Positions 16,849 to 29,509 of a stretch of DNA of 64,000 nucleotides are shown here, piece by piece; positions within the stretch are counted from its first letter, which is position 1; every line of letters begins with the position of its first letter. This DNA is from Catenaria anguillulae PL171 (taxonomy: Eukaryota > Blastocladiomycota > Blastocladiomycetes > Blastocladiales > Catenariaceae), in NCBI GenBank assembly GCA_002102555.1, contig MCFL01000075.1:1-64000 (forward strand), given 5' to 3'. The notes beneath the pieces are model-generated. The model ran no database searches. It was not told where the DNA came from and saw nothing but the letters and a program-made list of their open reading frames with translations. Position numbers and translations under genes: made by a program.

Positions 16849-19800
16849 ATGGAAACCAAGCAATCAAGTCATCTGATACATCACCTGCTTTCAGCTCCGC
16901 TCGCTTCCTCCTCTTCATCTTTCTCCGCCTCATCTACGTCACGTCAGAATTGCCATTCCTCGACATCCTCTGTCCAAGCTCACTCGTCCGCCCGCTCAAG
17001 GGCCGCGTCCGCACCCGTCACCGTGTCCGTCTCGGCCATCTCTGCTGTTCCCATCCTCCATCATCATCATCTCCCACTCCATCACCAGCCCCATCCGCAC
17101 CAACAGTCGCATCTCCAAGAAAAGCCAAAGAAGCCGCCCACACAGCCGCCCATGTCGCGCCGGCCCTCCTCGGGCGCGTCCACATTTGCCCTGGTCACGC
17201 CATTGCACACTCACTTGGAACACAAGCCGGGAGACGGCGCGCTGGACTCTGCAGGGCTGCCGCCATCGCCCGTCAAGAAGACACATCAAGCAAAGGAATC
17301 GACCTCGACATCGGCTTCGCACCGATTCCCGGCCTCTGCTTTTCATCAGCATCACCACCCGCACCAATCCCAGGGCATCGATCAGCACCAAGAGTTTCAC
17401 CTTGCGCGCGATCACCAACCGCCCACGGCAGCAAGTGCTTCGGCCGCCGCTGCGTTGGCCGCAACGGCCGCTCGCCCAGACATGCCGCGCATTGATTCTG
17501 GCGTAGGCTCATTTGCCACCTTGGCCTCGCTGTCCAGCACTTCGTCGCTTTCACTGTCCCTCTCGGCATGCAGCACAACGGACACGGCCATCGTATCGCC
17601 CAAACTCGGAGCCAATGCACGCGCCTCTTCTGTCGCTGCCATTCCCGAGGCGACACAACAGGAGGAGGAGCAAGAAAAGGCACAGGATGCGGATGACGAG
17701 CACGAGGAAACCGATGAAGACGACGACGACGACGACGACAAGTTTCACGATGCTCGATCGGGGCTACTTGGACTCGGGCTGTTTGGATCCTCATTGACGA
17801 CAAACAAGCACAGCGGTCACATCGACTTTTCCAACCCACCACAGCTGCCAACCCCGGCACTCAACTCGGACGACCTGTTTGCCGAATTCCATCTAGCACA
17901 TTCGTCCTCGTCTCCAATGCACTCGCTGACCCACAAGTCACCCGCTACCACGTTGTCCTCATCCACCTCTTCGCTTCTCGATGCGCTCGCCGACCACGCG
18001 CCGCCCACCCCGGCACTCGCACCTGCCTCGTCCACACACCATCTGGTTGATTCGGCAGCCACGTCGCTCACGTCGTCGCCCAACTCGGCCACGTCCAGCA
18101 CGGCACATGCCAGCGCCGATGCAAATCCACATGCACACGCACTTGTCCTGCCGCCACTGCACGCCAGCCACCCGCGGGTTGTTGGCGGTGTCGGCTATCC
18201 CGAATTCCACGTGCGCCCACGCGCCGATCGCGAGGCCGGCATCGACGACACGTCATCGTCGTCCGGATTTGACGTGGACATTGATGACGAAGTGTCCGCG
18301 ACCGACTCGGACTCGGAGTCGGACGGCGAGCACCGGCTCATGCTTCGCGCATACACGACGCATCCACACGCCTTAGCAGCGGGACCCTCGGGCGGAGCAG
18401 CACCGGCCTTGTCATCGGTGCCGCACCTTCCGCAGCCACAGCTCGAGCCTCTGACGCGCTCGTCGCGCTCGTCGTCCATGTCGTCCACGGCGTCGCACAA
18501 GTCACACGCATCGTCGCTCGCGCAATCCATTATTGACGCCGCACTCAACTTTACTGGATTTGCCGGGCTGCGCGCTCGCGCGGCAAGCTCAAAGCCCAGT
18601 GCCACAACCTCGTCGGCGGGATCCACGGCAGGCTCGTCGCCCAGAGTGGGCGCAACGGGCGCGGGCCGGCGCGACCAAGATGCGCACGATTTGAGCTTGC
18701 ACGTGGCACAGGCTGTGCTTGCCGCGTCCGAGGCGGCGGGCGTGGCCGCGGATCAGCCACGAGACTGCAAGCCCACGGCAGGCTCGGGTGCGGCGGCGGC
18801 AGCAGCAGCCGGGTTGCCCGGGCTGTTTGCGCGACTTGGGCTGGGCGGTGGGTCAGCGCACGAGAGCAAGGCGCCGTCGTTGGCGCATTCGCGGTCGGAT
18901 ACGTGCACGAGCTTTGGGCTGCTAACGTCCGACTTCATGACGACACTTGCGCCTTCGGCTACAGCTACGTCAACGTCGACGGCCGCCCACGTGGCGGCAG
19001 CACCCTCGGCCGTGGCAGAGTATGAGCCGAGTGATGCGGGCACGGGCAAGACGGCGGTTGGGGCAACAATGCCCGCGCACCAAGTTGAGGCACATGCGGG
19101 CAGTGGCGTGCCCGTGCCGCCGTCGCCCACGCGCGCGCTGCTCCGGTCGACGTGTAACGATTGGGATGCGCATTTGGCGACATACATTGATCCAATCTTT
19201 GCGCATTTGCGTGCGCTCGAGGTGCGTCTCTATTTTTTTTTTTGTCTCTTGGATTAGTTGGTTCGCGAGCAAACGTCTCACACGCTCTTCGTCATGATTC
19301 AGACACGGTACCGCCCAAAGCGGCATTACATGGACACCCTGCAGACGGCCATTTCGCGCGAGATGCGCGACAACCTCGTGGATTATCTTGTTGGTGTCCG
19401 TGTCGACTTGTCACTGTCGAGGGACTCTGTGTTTTTGGCCGTGAATTACCTGGACCGGTTCCTGAGCAAACGGGTTGTGACCAGCACCACCTTGGACAGT
19501 GTGTGCCTGGCTGCGTTGCTCGTGTCCACGTACGTCGAGCTACTTGCGACCTTGTTCCCTTCATTTCTTTCCACTTGGTCTCACACGCAACTGAATTTAC
19601 GCAGGAAATACGAGGAAGTCGCCCCTCCCGACGTGCTTGACCTGACGCGCCTGCTCGAGGGCCAATTCACGCCCGACGATCTGCTCGACATGGAGCGCGA
19701 GCTGCTCACGACGCTCGCATTCAAGCTTAACGTGGCGACCATTGAATCGTTCCTGCCGCTGGCCATGGCCGCCGCAGGTATCGTCAACCCGGACCCAGTC

Positions 19801-20157
19801 ACCACCATCCACGTCGAGCACGTGGCGTGGATGGCGATTGCAGACTATGATGTCGCGCACATGCACTTGGCAAGCGTGCTGGCAGGCGCAAGTGTCATTG
19901 TGGCGGCCGAGGTGTTTGGTGCAGGTGGCGCCGTGGCGCATGCTGCTGCTGGGGGGTCGGGGCACAGGGCCGTCGTGACGCATGAGCAGGCAGACCAGAT
20001 GTGGGATGGGGTGTGCAAGTGGTTGGGCCAAGACGCGGCAAGGGAGTTGGCGGGCGCTGTGTCGGGCCTGCGCAGGGCGTTGCGCAAGCCCAGGATGAAC
20101 ATTCAGAGGTGTACCGAGTTGGCCCTCAGGGCGGCGTCGAAGGCTGTCGAGGCATAG
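16849..20157 (+). CDS. Large A/B-type cyclin with a long disordered N-terminus
   Basis: Exons are 16849-19221, 19258-19529 and 19605-20157, giving 1065 residues. The first 780 residues are low complexity (Ser, Ala, His, Pro runs and an acidic stretch with consecutive D near residue 295). The cyclin box starts around residue 795 with YRPKRHYMDTLQ, then MRDNLVDYLVGV, LAVNYLDRFLS and LLVSTKYEEVAPPDV, followed by a second cyclin fold. The pattern is that of mitotic cyclins ('MRxxLVDWLVEV...LAVNYxDRFLS...ASKYEEI'), with Y in place of the usual W. It should activate a Cdk. Intron 1 is 36 nt. Intron 2 is 75 nt (19530-19604, GTACGT...GCAG), a multiple of three without a stop, so unspliced RNA would add 25 residues inside the cyclin box. 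Confidence 0.88.
19222..19257 (+). other. 36-nt intron of the cyclin gene
   Basis: Donor gtgcgt, a run of T, and acceptor gattag. It is needed because the upstream frame stops at 19257, and removing it joins LRALE to LVREQTSHTLF in frame. Confidence 0.8.
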
Positions 20158-20280
20158 CCATGAGAAGTGAGGCGAGGGGAGCTTGCTCATTTGTGTTCAA
20201 CCGTTTTTTTCTTTGCCATAACCGTCATTTTTTCCCCCTTCCCCTTCCTTCCGTTACGCCCATCTGCCATCGTGTTTTAC

Positions 20281-20287
20281 CCACGTC
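20281..20287. repeat. Target-site duplication (left), CCACGTC
   Basis: The seven bases immediately outside the left terminal inverted repeat are repeated exactly at 28849-28855, immediately outside the right one. Confidence 0.85.
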
Positions 20288-20380
20288 TATGGCGGGGCAA
20301 AGTGCTCATTTGCTGCTAAACAAGCTGACGTGACTGGTCTGACGTGACTGACGTGACTGAGCTGAGCTGACTGAGCTGAA
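20288..20380. repeat. Left terminal inverted repeat with subterminal motifs
   Basis: The repeat starts tatggcggggcaaagtgctc. A 66-bp core (20300-20365) is identical to the reverse complement of 28771-28836. It contains three copies of tgacgtgact and several ctgagctga units, which are likely transposase-binding repeats. Confidence 0.9.
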
Positions 20381-21324
20381 CTGACATGCCCAATATTTCT
20401 TTAGGCTTTATGGAAGCCCACAGTGACTATAAGATGGAGCATTCAATGCACGGTGGCATTATCATTAATGCCTATTCTGCCCAATGAAGACAGTCGTCCA
20501 TGTAAGTTCAATTCAAATGAAATCTAGATGCAATAATGCAGGCCATTCTCATGCAATTCCATCCCAACTCGTCGCACAGCCTTCAGCCGACATGGACAAG
20601 ACCCCCTGCGTTGCTCCCACCGGCTAGAGCTGTACCATCCATGGTCGAAACCGCCGTCCTCACTGTGCGCCGGCGACGGCAAGTTCGCTCAACAGTAGGC
20701 CCGGTTTAGATTTCGACGGATCGGTCGGAGCATGTGTCGATTCGGTTGCGTTGCTGGAGCGGCCAACAATACCGCTAGATGGCACGGGCGCTGGTAGCGT
20801 TGTCGCTGTCTTCCGACCCACAGGTCGTCGTACTTGCGGGACATGAATAAACGGCCAAGGGATGCCTTCAGTTCCCGTCCTGCTGTAGCTCGGATATTCG
20901 CAGCGCTTCGACCTCGTCAAGTCTCCTGCACCGAGCCTGCCATGGTGAACCCGGTGTGGCGCGCCAAGTCGACCAGCACTTGGACGAGCTATGCCACCAC
21001 TTTGCCCGTGGGTGACGAGCAGCTCGCAGCTCTTGAGTCATTGGTCGCGAAAGCCGAAGTCTTGGATCTCCCAGTCTAGTCGTGGACCTGTTGGGTGACG
21101 GATTCTTGGAGCTTCCTCATCAATGCAAGTATGCGTCGTTACATCCAGCACGCAGACGGGACAGGTCCATACATTCTCTAAGTGTGACTAATACTTTGAA
21201 ACATTGAGCACCCGACGGCAGTTCAATGTGCGACTCAGACATTTGCAACGTCCGCACATCGGGATAAATGTCTCGCATAAAATGTGGGGAACCGAAACAG
21301 GATATAATTGAGAGCGATGCAAAT
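20381..21324. other. Transposon interior, left part, no confident gene
   Basis: Short minus-strand frames at 20660-20920 and 21120-21431 could be downstream exons or UTR of the transposase gene, but no domain or convincing splice path was found. Confidence 0.35.
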
Positions 21325-23090
21325 TTACACAGTGCCGAGGAGTGCAACCGTCGTAGAGATGAAGTCCAAGATGTACTGACGGAAGAGTGGAGAGTGCGTG
21401 GGATGAAAGGGACGGACAATTTCGGAAGCAATCATGTCCAAGTTATGGTTATCATCTAAGCGGGTTTTGCGCTCGGCCTGGAGCTCTGGCCACTCGCTGA
21501 GCGGGTCGCGCAGTTCCATTTCCGGAATGATGGAACCCCCTTGAGCGATGTACTCTGCCGCCGCGGCACCTGTGTCCAGAAGCGATCCAGGAATCAAAGG
21601 CATAGTGTTGAACTGATTCTTCATGACCTGCTTTGGACGCCCAACTCGATCAATGCGGCGGTTGACGAGCTGGCCAAAAAGGCGGTCGATGAGCACATTG
21701 GCGATGGAGCATGCTGCCGTAGCCACGCAAAACTTGTGCACGTCATTGCCCAGGTCAAAGTCGTGGTTGGCAAACATGGTGTCGAGGGTCAAGAGCATGG
21801 GCCGAGTGACGCCCTGGTTGAGAAATCGCCATTGGTATTCGGCACGTGTGTTACTTGTAGATGGAACGACACGGGCAGATTCGCGGCCGGGATTGTCCAT
21901 GACGTATGGCACTTCGTGCAGGCGGGCAAGGTGATTTTGGTAGTGCATGACAAGGACATTTTCCGTTCCACGATCACAAGTGACCCGGTGCCATAGGCCA
22001 AATTGGTTCACGGCAAGTCTATGTCAAGAACGAGAAGCCATCGTGTCATGATAAATGGTTCCATGTGAGGCTGAGAAAGTGAATGGGTACGAACTGGTAG
22101 GCGTGGTACACAACAACGGCTGTTTTGCGAGTTGCGGCGAAAAGGTAGACGGGATACCGAGAATGTGCGTCAATTCCGCCGAAAAGGTAAACATGGTATC
22201 TACTCACGGTAAACAGATATGTCAACAACAACGACTTGTGCACAAGTCCGATCCAAACTGACGTACGCTTGCAACTTTTCATTTTGATCAATACACAAAA
22301 CGTCCCCGAAAAAGTTGGTGACGAATGGTCGGCGGACGATTCGAGTGTAAGCGTTGTTGCGTCGGAGAATGAACTCCTCGCGGTACAGGTACCACTGAGC
22401 GAGGCTTACGAGGCGTGCAGGGTATCGAGTTCCCGTTCGGGATTCGATCGAAGCGGTGAGCATTTCCCGTCCAACGCGAGTCCCACACTAGATGGCAATA
22501 AATGGCTTGCGTCAGACACCGTGGGTTACAACAGGTTGGAAAAGGTGCCCTCGTGCATACCCGTTCCACCTCAATGGCCACATTCTCTACGATGTCGCCA
22601 AAGTCCCACTTATCGTGCTTTTTGAGCCCGAGTTTCTTGCGGATACGCCGAACGGATGCTTTACTGAGCCCTCGTACATCCGGGTGCAAGGTTTGAAGCT
22701 GGTCAGCTATTTGCTGGTCGGTCAAATTGTCGTTGACGAGCGATGCCAGGTCGGTCTGAACATTGACATTGTTCGCCGTCGATTTGCGCTGGAATTGAAT
22801 GCCTAGCTTACTCCGACGATAACGGACTGAGGCCGCAGAGAGGCCGCCTGGTTTGCAAATATTGGGAGCCAGTTCGTAAATCGGGCGGGTTCACGATCGG
22901 ACGGAATGGTAATGTGTATGGGACGGATAGGTAAAAGGTATGTACGAAGGGGCTCGGGAGCCAATCGTTGCAGCGCTAGCGAAATTTCTCCATCGTTGGC
23001 GTAATTGTCGCACAGGTGTCGAAAGACTTCGTCGGAAACGAGTGTTGGGATGCACCCAATGCTGAATTCCTGATTGACGGCGGCATCCAT
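21325..23090 (-). CDS. DDE integrase-like transposase (eukaryotic integrase core domain family)
   Basis: A consistent five-exon model: 23090-22946, 22847-22561, 22487-22267, 22199-22095 and 22018-21325, giving 483 residues with no internal stop. Introns are GT-AG and all phases agree. Two helix-turn-helix-like repeats come first: LSAASVRYRRSKLGIQ, then DQQIADQLQ with LSKASVRRIRKKLGL. The catalytic core follows: GDVLCIDQNEKLQ (first D, about residue 211), FGGIDAHSRYPVYLF, GLWHRVTCDRGTENV (second D, about 268) and SNTRAEYQWRFLN (E, about 313). These match the family pattern 'WHxDGNHKL / HGGIDGxSR / DxGGENV / NxRIExxW', although the first motif is IDQN where DGN is usual. The gene lies inside the inverted repeats and is the likely transposase. 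Ginger/retroviral integrases share the fold but not this motif set. Confidence 0.8.
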
Positions 23091-23379
23091 TGCACTTGGT
23101 GAAAAAAAATTGCTTGAGAGAGACAAGGAGCGTTGTCTCATCATTGGAGAGCACACAGAATCGATTTAGTTATTGAAGCGCAAATGACAGTTTGTGACAA
23201 AGTCGTGCGATCATGTGATAAGTTGCCTCTCAGAACGGACAGAGAAAATGTTCGCAGCAAGGAGTTGGAATGTCCAGCAGCCCGCAAATGTATTGGCGAC
23301 GTTATAAATGGTGAGTGAATGGAAACATGAATACTATACTAGCCGCCACCCGCAATCCTCAAGCGTCGGCGCGCACTCC

Positions 23380-25136
23380 CTACCTATTCCAGACGTTGAC
23401 CTGCTCCAACAATGTAACCGCGTCCACTCGTTCTTGTGCGAGACGGTCCCGTATTGACTGGGGATTGGCGAGAAGCGGGAAGAGCAGCAACACCTCATCC
23501 CAGTGCGCCTTGCTGGCAGCCGCCGCTGCGCAGAGGAACTCAACAAATGCCAGCACAGCCTACAAAATGAAGCAAACTACGTCATGCACTGGAGGAGCAA
23601 AAAGAAAAGTGGACTATGGGGTGTCACGTACATTGGTCGAGGAGGAAAATGCGTACGGGGAGGCATGTTTGTGCCCACAACCTGTCCCGCATCGCTGGGC
23701 GGGTGCCTCCGATTCGTTAACGGGGGCTTGCATGAGTTCCCTTAGGCAGGTCACGCATGTCAATCGCACGCAGTAGGTCGAGTCGTGGCAAAGCAGAATT
23801 GTCATAGAGCTCCCTGGATTTGGGACGTATAGACCGGGTTAGCCAGTGGCAGCAGATATGTTGGCATCGCTCATCAGAATCACATACGGCATTTCGAGCA
23901 ACGAACCACATCACAAACGATTGAGTACATGTACGAGATCATGTCAACAACCTTGAGTGCGCTCATCGTGCGACTGAGCTCGGTTTTGCATTCGTTCCAA
24001 GTCTTGAAGCACGTTCCGCGAGATGGCCGGGTCCCTGCAAGTGTCATAGCAGAGATTGTGAATCAAGGGCGATTGTCTCAATGGAATGGTTGAATGGGCG
24101 TGTACATATGTGTCTGTTCAACGTCGTGGCGGCGTTTCCGAGCGAGCGACAGCTGCGGGAGCACATGGTGATCTGAATCGATGTCCATGCTTGACACACT
24201 CGGCGACGACGACAAACGCCTGTTGCTTGATTTGGGAGACAGCATGAGGATATCTGAGCTGTCATCCGAATCCATGCTGCCATCAGTGAGAGTGATGACG
24301 GCCCTTGCCTGCGACTGGTTGGGGATGGCACTTGTGAGAGCTGAAGAGGGTGCGGCAGTAATGGTGAATGCCGACTTTGATGGACGCTTCTGCAGCTGGC
24401 GAAGTGGAGCAAGGCCTGTGGTTGTAAGATTGTGAGTGGACGGTCTAGTATCCGCGACAGATGATTGAGTGAACGAATGACAAACCAGCTTGCAACTGGT
24501 CAAGGGGGATGAATCCTTTGTCCTGGGGTCGGCCGTATTCTGCATGACAGGGAGCGGGAGCAGAATCAGCACTGCCCATTTGAGAAAGAATGCAAGTCAA
24601 GATGGTAACGTACGAATAATGGTCATGGGCTTGACGTGCGCGCATGTTCCGTTGTTCATGCGCTCGATCAATGTCAGGTCGGCGGAGCTCTTCACGGTCT
24701 TGAAGGCCATGTGCTTGTCCTGCAGCCTTTCGACCTGAGTACGAATCAATGGCCAGTTGCTGGGGTCGTTGAGAACGGCATTCAGCGATGCATGGCCACT
24801 GCGGATTTTGAGCGCTATGGCAACGGTGTCCAGCGTCCACAAATGAGATGAAGATGACGATGTCGATGTCGATGAGGCAGCAGTTGCTGGGGGAATCGCG
24901 AGCTTGAGCGTGCAAATGAAGTCGCTGGCCTTTTCTTGAACGTTAAGCTTTGCGCTCGGCTTATTCTTTTTCTTGGGATCCGCCTTGGCAATGTGCGATG
25001 GTGGGTTGGCCTTGTCGTCTTGTGCCTTGGCCAATCGGGCATCGTGAAGGCTGGGCGTTGCGGCGCGGACATGGTCCTGCGCGCTGGTTCCAAGGGCAAT
25101 GGGCTTCGTATTTATGGGTGGAACACGAACTGCCAT
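23380..25136 (-). CDS. Uncharacterised spliced gene with cysteine cluster, transposon cargo
   Basis: The C-terminal exons are well supported: 24034-23888, 23813-23632 and 23559-23380 join in phase with GT-AG introns and end at TAG. They encode a cysteine-rich segment with CSKC, CVTC, CGTGC and a following H (possible zinc binding), then a helical tail (AVLAFVEFLCAAA...LLEQVNVWNR). An upstream frame, 25136-24597 (starting MAVRVPPINTKPIALG), has a Lys-rich stretch and a block LTLIERMNNGTCAHVKPMTI. A middle frame (about 24570-24078) has Ser/Asp-rich text with ITLTDGSMDSDDSSDILML, which resembles a SUMO-interaction motif. The joins between these parts are not settled, and an extra 5' exon near 25200-25330 is possible. 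I recognise no family, so function is unknown. Confidence 0.5.
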
Positions 25137-26799
25137 GGTAACAATGTGAGGTAAATGACGTGGCAGATGAAATCAAACTAAGGAGACACATACAAGTTGT
25201 GGACAATGAGCCACTCAATGAAGCCGACGAGGCAGATAATGATGATTGAGATGCTCCTCCTAATAAAGAACCTACAGATGCCAAAGCATCAGGTGAGCTT
25301 GACTCTGCGGAATGGGAGGCTGCGTCGGCTGTGCGACGAATAATTGTACTGTTAGCGTGGCCAAATGCTGTAGCTGTGAAAGGGCATCGTACTGGACAAA
25401 ATGTGCACTGTAAACTTATCACCAGTTCGCGCGGCTTCGCCCAAAGCTTGCTGGACCGCGCTAAAGCTGACAGATGGACATGTCTCGCCATGTGCAATGA
25501 CTGTGAATTGTGTCAATGGTTGGTTCAACCGCGTAAGCTCAACTGCAGCAGCGTCATAGTCTGTACAACATCAGTGATGGGTCAGAGCATGTCCTCTGTT
25601 GAGGGAAGAAAGGGAATCAACGCACCCATGTCCAAGTCCTTTTTCGAAAAGAAACCAGACTCGAACTTGCTGGCAGTTTCGAAATAACGGAGAGTGCAGG
25701 GGAGTTTGGGTGGCATGCTGCGGCGAATGACTTGGAAAGGAATTGGTTGAGATGTCGCTGAGAATGGAGTGTGAGGGTCGAGAGTCGAGAGTGAGTTTGC
25801 ACAGCTGTTTGCAGTGAGGCCCGAAAGTGGGGGTGAGTTGGCTCCTTATGTACTTGCCGAGACGGCGAAAGTGGGACTCTGTCGCCATAGCAAGTACACT
25901 TAAGCGCTCGTGCAAAGCTTTGTTCTTGGGTGGGCGGCATCATGGAAGACTTGCACGATTACAGCAACGCGGCTGACGCAACGGCCGCAGCTTGTTAGAG
26001 GCAATGACTCTGGAATCAGGACAGGTATGCTTTTGGGCGAGCAGCTTCATGTATGGCTTGCTCGTTGTCATTTGACCGGAGAGTACATAATGGCAAACTA
26101 GCTGACGCACAGTCACAGCTTGTTTGTATTGACTGCGGATCGCGAATGGGCTCAGGTAAGCACGTGATGGTTATGGAAGGCTTGGGAGCGATTCGCCCGT
26201 GGTAACGATGGCAACTTTCTTGATGGACGCAGTAGCTGCGGAAAGTGCATGGGCTGAGGAGCTCGATTAACGGGTCTTCATGGATGTAAGCCTTTATGGT
26301 GGGTTTGATTGCTTGTGTGTAAACGCGAACGTTGGGCACGACATGCAATGTCTCGTGATCTTTCGGGTTTCAGGAGCATGATCGTGAAACATTATTGGGA
26401 TCATTTTCCACTTGCATCCGCCTCCAAACACAACACGACGTCTGACCATTACAACAGCGGCAGCCATGGCACGCCGTTGAGATTTCAGTGCATAGCCATA
26501 TGCACGCTTGATTTTCATATTGTAGTGACAGCTGTGGATGGTCACACTTGCCTCTATGCCTTGGACCAGAAGGAGAGACTCAAGTCGCGACCACTGCGGC
26601 CAACCTTGGTTATGCATTGGTGCTGTCAACAACAAGGAGAGGAAAGCCTTTGGAAAGAGCTCAAGGGCTGGGAACTACAAGTATATGCCAACGCCCCTCT
26701 ACCATTTCAGATTGAGAGAGTCGTTCACCGAGCACATCTCAGCAAGCATCCCTTCTTTCACACTTCCCATCCTTGCCTCGCACATCTTTCACGTTCAAC
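25137..26799. other. Transposon interior between the divergent cargo genes
   Basis: This probably holds the 5' part and promoter of the cysteine-rich gene (minus) and the promoter of the PWWP-like gene (plus). Short frames such as 25915-25571 (minus) and 26309-27043 (plus) have no recognisable domain. Confidence 0.4.
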
Positions 26800-28574
26800 A
26801 TGCCTCATCATCCATCCATCTACGTCTCTGCGGGCACCCTGTGCTGGACGCTTGGACCCAACACAGACTTGCCGTGGATTCCTGCCATCATCAAATCTGT
26901 CAATGTGGACGCAATCACCATGGTCCATGGCGACGAGCCGCTCGTGCAGCACACTGTCTCGCAACAACAGTTCATTCTCAAGTATAGTCAATGGGTTCCA
27001 CCGGAGACCATGCGGATTCGCTGGCTGCACCACAAGTGTTTGACTCCTGGCGCCAATGATGACGCCATACGCGCATGCATCGACTTCATTCAAAGTGCCC
27101 AAGGTTTTTTCATTCTTCCTGTCGTTTCAAGCACCGAAGATACTCACTTGTACTCCATGTGTCTTGCAGAGCATCGCCCAAAGTTCTTTACCAGAGAAAG
27201 CCATGACCGCTTTGCTGAAGCAGTACGTCGTTTCCGGAAATCGCTGCATTTTGTGCCAACATGAGCTAACTTATATCATCTCCACCTGCGCAGCTTGCCG
27301 CCTCAGCCTTCGACGATTCCATGAACGCTGACGCACCGTACATGTCAGATCCGTTTGAGGTATGAACCAATTCTGAACTCTGCTACCACCTCGGCTCATT
27401 CTAACAATTCATCTTCCTCAACCAGATTCCGGATTTCGAGGTCAGCAGCTCTGACACCAACAGCGACTCCGACCTGGACCATGGTGGCTCATTGCCTGAA
27501 AGCGAGCTCCCAATTGGCTTGCTGGTTCTCGCACGAGTTGAACAAAACGACAACTGGTCAATTTCCCGAGTCATCTCTGCCATCGAAAATGGCCGTGTTC
27601 TCGTCCGTTGCTCCGCCACGTCGTCCATGCTTGACGTGCCCGTGTCTCGCCGTCACTTGATGATCAAGAACCTCGTTCGTGATTCTTTTCCGACGGTAAT
27701 CTACAACCCACCGTCAAGTTTCTCGCATGTACCTTCGGGTAATCTCAAGCACCCCGACCTGCTCGATGTTCTCAAGCGCCGGTTCCGCTCCATTCGTCCG
27801 CTGCTTCATGATTTGCTCCGCGGCAAACGCCCATCGATCCTCGCCGCTGAGCTGGCACGTGTGCGTGAGCAGCCGCGTATCACGTCGTACCAAACTACCA
27901 CGGCCATGTCGGCGTTCTTCACCTCGATTGGATTTCGGGCGGACAACTCGTATGGCATGTCGGAGGCGGAAGAGCGCTTTATGATGCTCGCCCTTGACAA
28001 GCACTTTCCAAGTTGCACTGGGGATGACCGTTTGTTTGTGCTCCACCACGAGTGCATGGTTCGATTGTTTGTATTGACCTATATGGTTGATGCAAATGGC
28101 CATGTCAGCCTCGATGAAGCGTACCACAAGGACCGGATTGCCCAAGAATGGACCCTCACTTCACGGTACAACGACCCAACATTTCACGGGGGATTGGTGA
28201 CGTACACGGCCATTCAAAATGTGGACCAGGAGGCCGAATGGTTGCCGATGGCATGGCGGATGGTCGGCGAGCTGTTCTGGGCTCGCAACTTGCGCGCCGA
28301 ATGGAGCACTGTCAAGTGGAAATTGCCGGAGGATCCAGTGGTTGTGGAGGAAGAGGGGGAAGAGGGGGAGGAGGGGATTGACGAGGAATATGCATTGGCG
28401 GCTGCGTTTGCTGCCACCAAGCCAAAGCTCAAGATGCGGCGTCCCGAGCGGCCAACAACGGACATGAAGGAACTGGAGAAGAGGCGTCAGAGAAAGTTGG
28501 CGGCGGAAGCGCAAGCCAAGCTACGCAGGGAAGAAAGAGACGAGTCGGATCCTGATTCAGAGTATATGATGTAG
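26800..28574 (+). CDS. PWWP/Tudor-like protein, transposon cargo
   Basis: Four exons (26800-27103, 27170-27222, 27294-27359, 27426-28574) give 523 residues. All introns are GT-AG and phases agree; the first (66 nt) is a multiple of three without a stop. Near the N-terminus, AGTLCWTLGPNTDLPWIPAI resembles the PWWP signature 'GDLVWAKxxGxPWWPAxV'. After an acidic Ser/Asp linker a second small beta-barrel-like segment follows (IGLLVLARVEQNDNWSISRV). The rest is helical and ends in a Glu-rich then Lys/Arg-rich tail. PWWP and Tudor domains read methylated histones or bind DNA, so a chromatin-targeting role is possible but inferred. It lies inside the inverted repeats, 183 bp from the right one. It could also be a host gene captured by the element. 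Confidence 0.7.
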
Positions 28575-28756
28575 TGGTTCCCATATGCTTGTTTTCAATT
28601 TATGCCTAGGCTTGGCACTTGCGTTGTTTGTGGGCTCTAAGATTTGCTTCCACATCTTTTGAGGTCAGCAATGAGAAATGCCTCTCACACCTGTTGGGAC
28701 CATGAAACAATAAGTAATCCAGTTAGATTCTTGTTCGAAAGAAATCATACTTGTGA

Positions 28757-28848
28757 GCTCGGTCAGCTCAGTCAGCTCAGTCACGTCAGTCACGTCAGAC
28801 CAGTCACGTCAGCTTGTTTAGCAGCAAATGAGCACTTCGCCCCCCATA
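28757..28848. repeat. Right terminal inverted repeat
   Basis: Reading inward on the minus strand it begins tatggggggcgaagtgctca and matches the left repeat over about 90 bp, with 66 identical bases (28836-28771). The right copy lacks one ctgag unit present in the left copy. Confidence 0.9.
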
Positions 28849-28855
28849 CCACGTC
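28849..28855. repeat. Target-site duplication (right), CCACGTC
   Basis: Identical to 20281-20287 and directly adjoining the right inverted repeat. Confidence 0.85.
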
Positions 28856-29509
28856 CCTTTCACGTTCCTTCTGGTCCTATGCCCCATATTCTCGCTTATT
28901 CATGATTCCCCAGATTCTCTTCCCGTCGCCGACCTACCATATTCGTACCTGCCTATGCTTTCCATCACTCGTGACCCTTGCACATGCTTCCTTGGATGCA
29001 CCTTCTGCCTCACATTCTTTCCCCCCCTCCTCCTCTCGTCCGCATGACCCCCAGACCCCCCCCCCCCCCGTGGCACCATTTGCTGCGCTCTGCCTCATAT
29101 CTGTCCTTTCCAATGTCTTGGTTTTCCTACCCCTCCCGTCCACTGCACTTGATTCATCACGTTTGATCTGTGCCCTGCAAACAATGCGCCGTCAATTGTG
29201 ATTGTTGCTGTCCAAATTATTTACTGAAATATCACTCGCTCGTTCTCTTTTTTTTTTCCAAGTTTATTGATTCTGGTGCGATGATCTGATCTTGGAGGAG
29301 GTGGACAGAAGGCGAAAGAAGAATGAATAAGAACAAAACGTAATGGCGTGAAAACTCCGGTCCGAGTCCGGGGATCCATGTGGCAAGTTATGCGGTTAGC
29401 CTCTTGTGGAGCAGAACTTGCTTTGGCAGCCAATGACTTCATCAATACAATCGCCAGATCAAGGAAGACGCTGCGATGTGCACTTGCGTGTCATCGCTAG
29501 TTGCGTTTC
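28856..29509. other. Spacer right of the transposon
   Basis: Pyrimidine-rich DNA with a run of 14 C (29056-29069) and a T run near 29249-29258. No supported gene. Confidence 0.5.

Follow-up and report, generated by a model that had tools for sequence, protein, structure and literature searches.

An apparently autonomous IS3EU-like DNA transposon with 7-bp target-site duplications in the zoosporic fungus Catenaria anguillulae

The window, i.e., the whole stretch of 64,000 nucleotides analysed here, originates from Catenaria anguillulae PL171, a zoosporic fungus of the Blastocladiomycota, and contains an element of 8,561 bp with TATGG...CCATA termini (Table 1). The first-pass annotation had described a complete DNA transposon of 8.56 kb with inverted repeats of approximately 90 bp, both starting with TATGG and bordered on the outside by CCACGTC, which bracket a transposase and at least two other genes. 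These boundaries proved correct to the base, the flanking heptamers were confirmed, and three predicted genes were modelled between the ends, all of which were spliced by hand from open frames. A gene encoding a Cyclin N-terminal domain (PF00134, E 3.4e-27) is located at 19258-20157 on the plus strand, and its frame stops 130 bp before the element.

Table 1. Features of the element, in window coordinates
Feature	Position	Strand	Basis
Left target-site duplication, CCACGTC	20281..20287	.	Flank comparison
Whole element, 8,561 bp	20288..28848		
Left terminal inverted repeat, ~90 bp, starts TATGGCGGGGC	20288..20377	+	Alignment
Transposase gene, predicted, 5 exons, 500 aa	21325..23090	-	Hand-spliced model, Pfam
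Transposase exons	23090-22895, 22847-22561, 22487-22267, 22199-22095, 22018-21325	-	
Second gene, tentative, 316 aa (25136-24610, 24571-24486, 24415-24078)	24078..25136	-	Hand-spliced model
Third gene, predicted, 523 aa (26800-27103, 27170-27222, 27294-27359, 27426-28574)	26800..28574	+	4-exon predicted model
Right terminal inverted repeat, end CCCCCCATA	28759..28848	-	Alignment
Right target-site duplication, CCACGTC	28849..28855	.	Flank comparison

An inverted-pair search of positions 20000-29200 ranked the two ends of the element first among the 20 pairs listed, with arms of 72 nt that are 99% complementary (20294-20365 and 28772-28843); the best listed pair without these ends spanned 36 nt at 72%. 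In a gapped alignment both ends begin with TATGG, and their likeness extends with small gaps to approximately 90 bp. The inner parts of both ends are made up of the repeated words CTGACGTGA (at 20325, 20339, and 20348 in the left repeat) and CTGAGCTGA (at 20357, 20362, and 20371), which are possible candidates for transposase-binding sites. When TATGG and CCATA were taken as the fixed termini and flank lengths of 1 to 20 were tried, exact flank matches were obtained at lengths 1 and 7, and the frequency of a chance 7-nt match between random window positions was 0.00013 (200,000 draws).

The predicted transposase gene contains four GT..AG introns of 47, 73, 67, and 76 nt, and its exon-4 donor was set to agree with the predicted proteins P0001 and P0002. 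The spliced 500-residue protein matches the Pfam family rva_4 (55.2 bits, E 9.6e-15, cut-off 26), with the integrase core at residues 227-369, and it scored 22.2 bits with rve, below the cut-off of that family. The unspliced exons matched rva_4 weakly (E 1.7e-4 and 0.038). Up to an E of 10, no Pfam families beyond rva_4 and rve were listed, nor was an HHCC domain or zinc-finger family found. The window protein was aligned with three other transposases of the Catenaria assembly, i.e., P0002 (contig C19), a hand-assembled protein of C290, and a protein of C9, to which it is 43%, 30%, and 21% identical, respectively. The predicted catalytic residues D228, D285, and E330 are invariant in this alignment, while the D2-E gap amounts to 44 residues in the window protein, 41 in both the C19 and C290 proteins, and 34 in the C9 protein. 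A protein search with an earlier 495-residue model of the transposase returned two proteins, both from Catenaria, from approximately 8,000 candidates scored, a depth at which distant relatives may be missed; a profile search with the four aligned proteins, again with approximately 8,000 candidates scored, also returned two, one from Catenaria and one being the window's own entry. The transposase profile had no PDB match, and no Rfam match was obtained.

Besides the transposase, the element carries two predicted genes that are probably accessory or passenger genes and for which no relatives were recognised at the sensitivity used. The model of the second gene is tentative: its first intron would be just 38 nt, an upstream exon is possible near 25717, and its 5' end is therefore unsure. 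The encoded protein contains VITLTDGSMDSDD, which we take to resemble a SUMO-interacting motif. The third gene has GT..AG introns of 66, 71, and 66 nt, and its product was found in the assembly only in the two copies of the element described below, apart from two short, weak matches in the remnants on C157. Neither the 316-residue nor the 523-residue predicted protein matched a Pfam family above cut-off or an alpha-kinase family at E up to 10, and no TET/JBP gene was recognised in the element. A protein search with the 523-residue protein returned only the window's own entry among approximately 8,000 candidates scored, which may miss distant relatives. Three PDB matches of the third gene with E values of 0.21-1.1 were taken as chance, the AlphaFold2 model of its last exon has a mean pLDDT of 36.7, too low for interpretation, and the idea of SH3/Tudor-like folds in this protein found no support in any analysis.

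The search for further copies covered the organism's own assembly (41.07 Mb, 457 contigs, the window being located on C431). The left end (20285-20395) gave at least six matches, and those listed included two inverted pairs, i.e., the window element and a second copy on another contig (C436:514580-523140, 8,561 bp), as well as two partial matches on C157. The search for additional inverted pairs proposed in the first-pass annotation thus yielded one more. In their aligned parts the two copies differ by no substitutions and by two 1-nt indels, neither of which is inside a predicted exon: a 1-nt gap with its first difference at window position 23987, and one extra C in a C-run at the right end. 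The C436 copy is flanked on both sides by the 7-bp sequence GTTGGAC, and with the same fixed termini the only exact flank match among lengths 1 to 20 is at length 7. This insertion sits within a GTTGGACAC(G/A) repeat, of which the 10-bp period is restored when one 7-mer is dropped; the duplication could also be read as 17 bp with one mismatch, but not as 6 bp given these termini. The window insertion site is free of this repeat ambiguity. Consequently, duplications of 7 bp flank both known copies of the window family, no other length was encountered, and a 6-bp duplication is excluded at both sites, given the TATGG/CCATA termini. A search of the assembly for an empty counterpart of the window insertion site found none.

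The alternative that an unrelated dispersed repeat was inserted twice, or that the two copies represent a segmental duplication, can draw on the resemblance of parts of 20491-21015 to another dispersed repeat. However, the likeness between the copies stops at the termini, beyond which lies unrelated sequence, and the two sites carry different duplications; this contradicts the alternative and leaves it a negligible probability. Lone inverted repeats elsewhere, which had been named as a finding that would count against a transposon, are confined to two truncated remnants among the matches listed. The element is thus a DNA transposon that has recently moved. The two remnants lie at approximately 298-315 kb on C157, in a 7.58-kb tandem duplication (97%); they are rearranged, with the transposase part turned round, and their matches to the left end begin only at element base 53. 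Patches at 20491-21015 and 27545-27672 of the window are 71-84% like dispersed repeats on C268, C449, C68, C29, C112, C46, and C66. The ends of these repeats are not TA-type at the five loci inspected, and the element therefore has this sequence in common with another repeat family.

The rva_4 profile matched 17 places in the assembly, including five strong-scoring copies of a single family of approximately 7 kb with ends TATGACGG..CCGCCATA (C9, C399 twice, C1, and C334). Duplications of 6 bp were present at all four copies examined, i.e., TTCCTC (C9), CAAATT (C399), CTCAGG (C1), and AGTGAG (second C399 copy). For the latter two, the left flanks were located with a degenerate pattern common to both, which matched exactly these two, and the C334 copy is outside the count because its alignment does not reach the terminus. 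Hence, the genome houses two such families, one with 6-bp and one with 7-bp duplications. These have an rva_4 transposase, TATG..CATA ends, and an opposite-strand second gene in common, whereas they differ in duplication length, in transposase sequence and D2-E gap (see above for the C9 protein), and in the second open frame, which is unrelated. In the C9 element, a 975-residue open frame contains a long glutamine-rich repeat and matches no Pfam family up to an E of 0.1.

Other relatives in the assembly lie on C19, C201/C308, C290, C419, C171, and C82, and those on C19, C201/C308, and C290 were read in search of element boundaries. The C290 relative has TATGG at 152062, with no inverted partner nearby among the matches listed. 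A candidate end of the C19 relative, near C19:31796 where likeness stops, was rejected, since it is not TA-type and resembles another repeat. C201:45200-48500 and C308:2900-6200 are approximately 98.6-98.9% identical and carry a distant transposase relative (DNTRVERLW), C308 being longer by approximately 840 bases at one place; TATGGCG at C201:45550 was discarded as an element boundary, because C201 and C308 continue to match to either side of this position. Approximately eleven short matches to the C201 sequence are found at C419:116146-116894, adjoining another transposase relative, and this array is probably a coding tandem repeat.

IS3EU elements, which form one lineage with GingerRoot, are described as having TA..TA termini, duplications that are usually 6 bp long, and an IS3/IS481-like DDE transposase that lacks an HHCC domain (PMC10045372). 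Those of rust fungi are reported to have TAYGG..CCRTA ends and inverted repeats of more than 30 bp, and the TET-bearing ones an alpha-kinase gene beside the transposase in opposite orientation (PMC12730594). The window element agrees with these descriptions in the TATGG..CCATA termini of both copies, in the long inverted repeats (72 nt at 99%), in an integrase-core DDE transposase in which no HHCC domain was found, and in carrying extra genes, one of which is oriented opposite to the transposase. In contrast, it duplicates 7 bp where 6 bp is the usual criterion, lacks a recognised alpha-kinase or TET/JBP gene, and has a divergent transposase with a D2-E gap longer than that of the 6-bp family in the same genome. 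Among related elements, Styx of Zymoseptoria is described as active, IS3EU-related, and 7,927 bp long, with many copies, observed jumps, and four coding sequences, two of which are known from the host genus only (PMC10853768). It resembles the window element as a fungal element of similar size with an IS3EU-related DDE transposase and extra coding sequences, but it has a 36-bp inverted repeat and 6-bp duplications, compared to approximately 90 bp and 7 bp here. Ginger1 and Ginger2 share an integrase-type DDE transposase and inverted repeats that span tens to hundreds of bp, whereas the TGTNR ends, H2C2 zinc finger, and 4- or 5-bp duplications reported for them (PMC2836005) are absent from the window element, as are the TNT..AYA ends and duplications near 4, 15, or 25 bp given for IS481EU (PMC10045372). 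Fungal 7-bp duplications are also described for hAT7 and for Kyakuja, the latter with CA..TG ends and described without inverted repeats (PMC12730594), but their transposases differ.

The first-pass statement that no named superfamily fits was therefore largely mistaken, since IS3EU/GingerRoot matches the ends, the long inverted repeats, and the type of transposase; what stood was the departure in duplication length. Because these three features agree, the element is regarded as an IS3EU-like variant rather than a proven member, named IS3EU elements having been compared by description only, and rva_4 proteins are presumed to be IS3EU transposases. A search of the available literature returned no report of IS3EU elements with 7-bp duplications, nor of Catenaria transposons of this kind. 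The 7-bp duplications, together with the 21% identity to the transposase of the 6-bp family, the D2-E gap of 44 versus 34, a first catalytic D set in the motif IDQNEKL instead of NDGWHKL, and the lack of recognised homologues for the second and third genes, might alternatively indicate a separate integrase-type superfamily whose relation to IS3EU is limited to distant ancestry and to TA ends that arose by convergence. This is quite improbable in view of the rva_4 match, the TATGG/CCATA ends, and the long inverted repeats held in common with IS3EU; moreover, the C290 protein, which has IDQNEKL, scored 92.9 bits with rva_4, an intermediate value compared to 55.2 for the window protein and 216.7 for the 6-bp family, and the proteins look like one graded group.

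The element at 20288-28848 is very probably an apparently autonomous class II transposon related to IS3EU/GingerRoot that uses a 7-base stagger, as judged from its ends, the duplications, the two insertion sites, the intact predicted frame, and the aligned D/D/E residues. Its transposase would attach to the long inverted repeats, cleave at the TA termini in a presumed cut-and-paste reaction, and join the ends to target DNA across a stagger of 7 bases, one base wider than in IS3EU, after which gap repair would generate the 7-bp duplication. The wider stagger would be a property of this transposase. It might be argued that the element is an ordinary IS3EU element in which a normally 6-bp reaction occasionally slipped at two sites, as two insertions only are known and the duplication length of IS481EU is described as variable even inside one family (PMC10045372); the occurrence of 7 bp at both sites of the window family versus 6 bp at all four of the other family makes this unlikely. 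A lineage of IS3EU-like transposons with IDQNEKL and a D2-E gap of 41-44 may have widened the spacing of its strand transfer by one base, from 6 to 7, while residing in the same genome as 6-bp relatives, a tentative proposal held with less than even confidence. More speculatively, the residues added between D2 and E could belong to the structural change behind the 7-base stagger.

The length of a target-site duplication reflects how far apart the two strand-transfer sites lie in the transposition complex, and it serves in the assignment of transposons to superfamilies. A duplication of 7 instead of 6 bases is a modest but real variation, and it warns against the use of a strict 6-bp filter for IS3EU. 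Moreover, by ends and transposase, a blastocladiomycete fungus is added to the hosts of such elements. Finally, the related 6- and 7-bp families within one genome would provide a natural pair for the investigation of the protein basis of this spacing.
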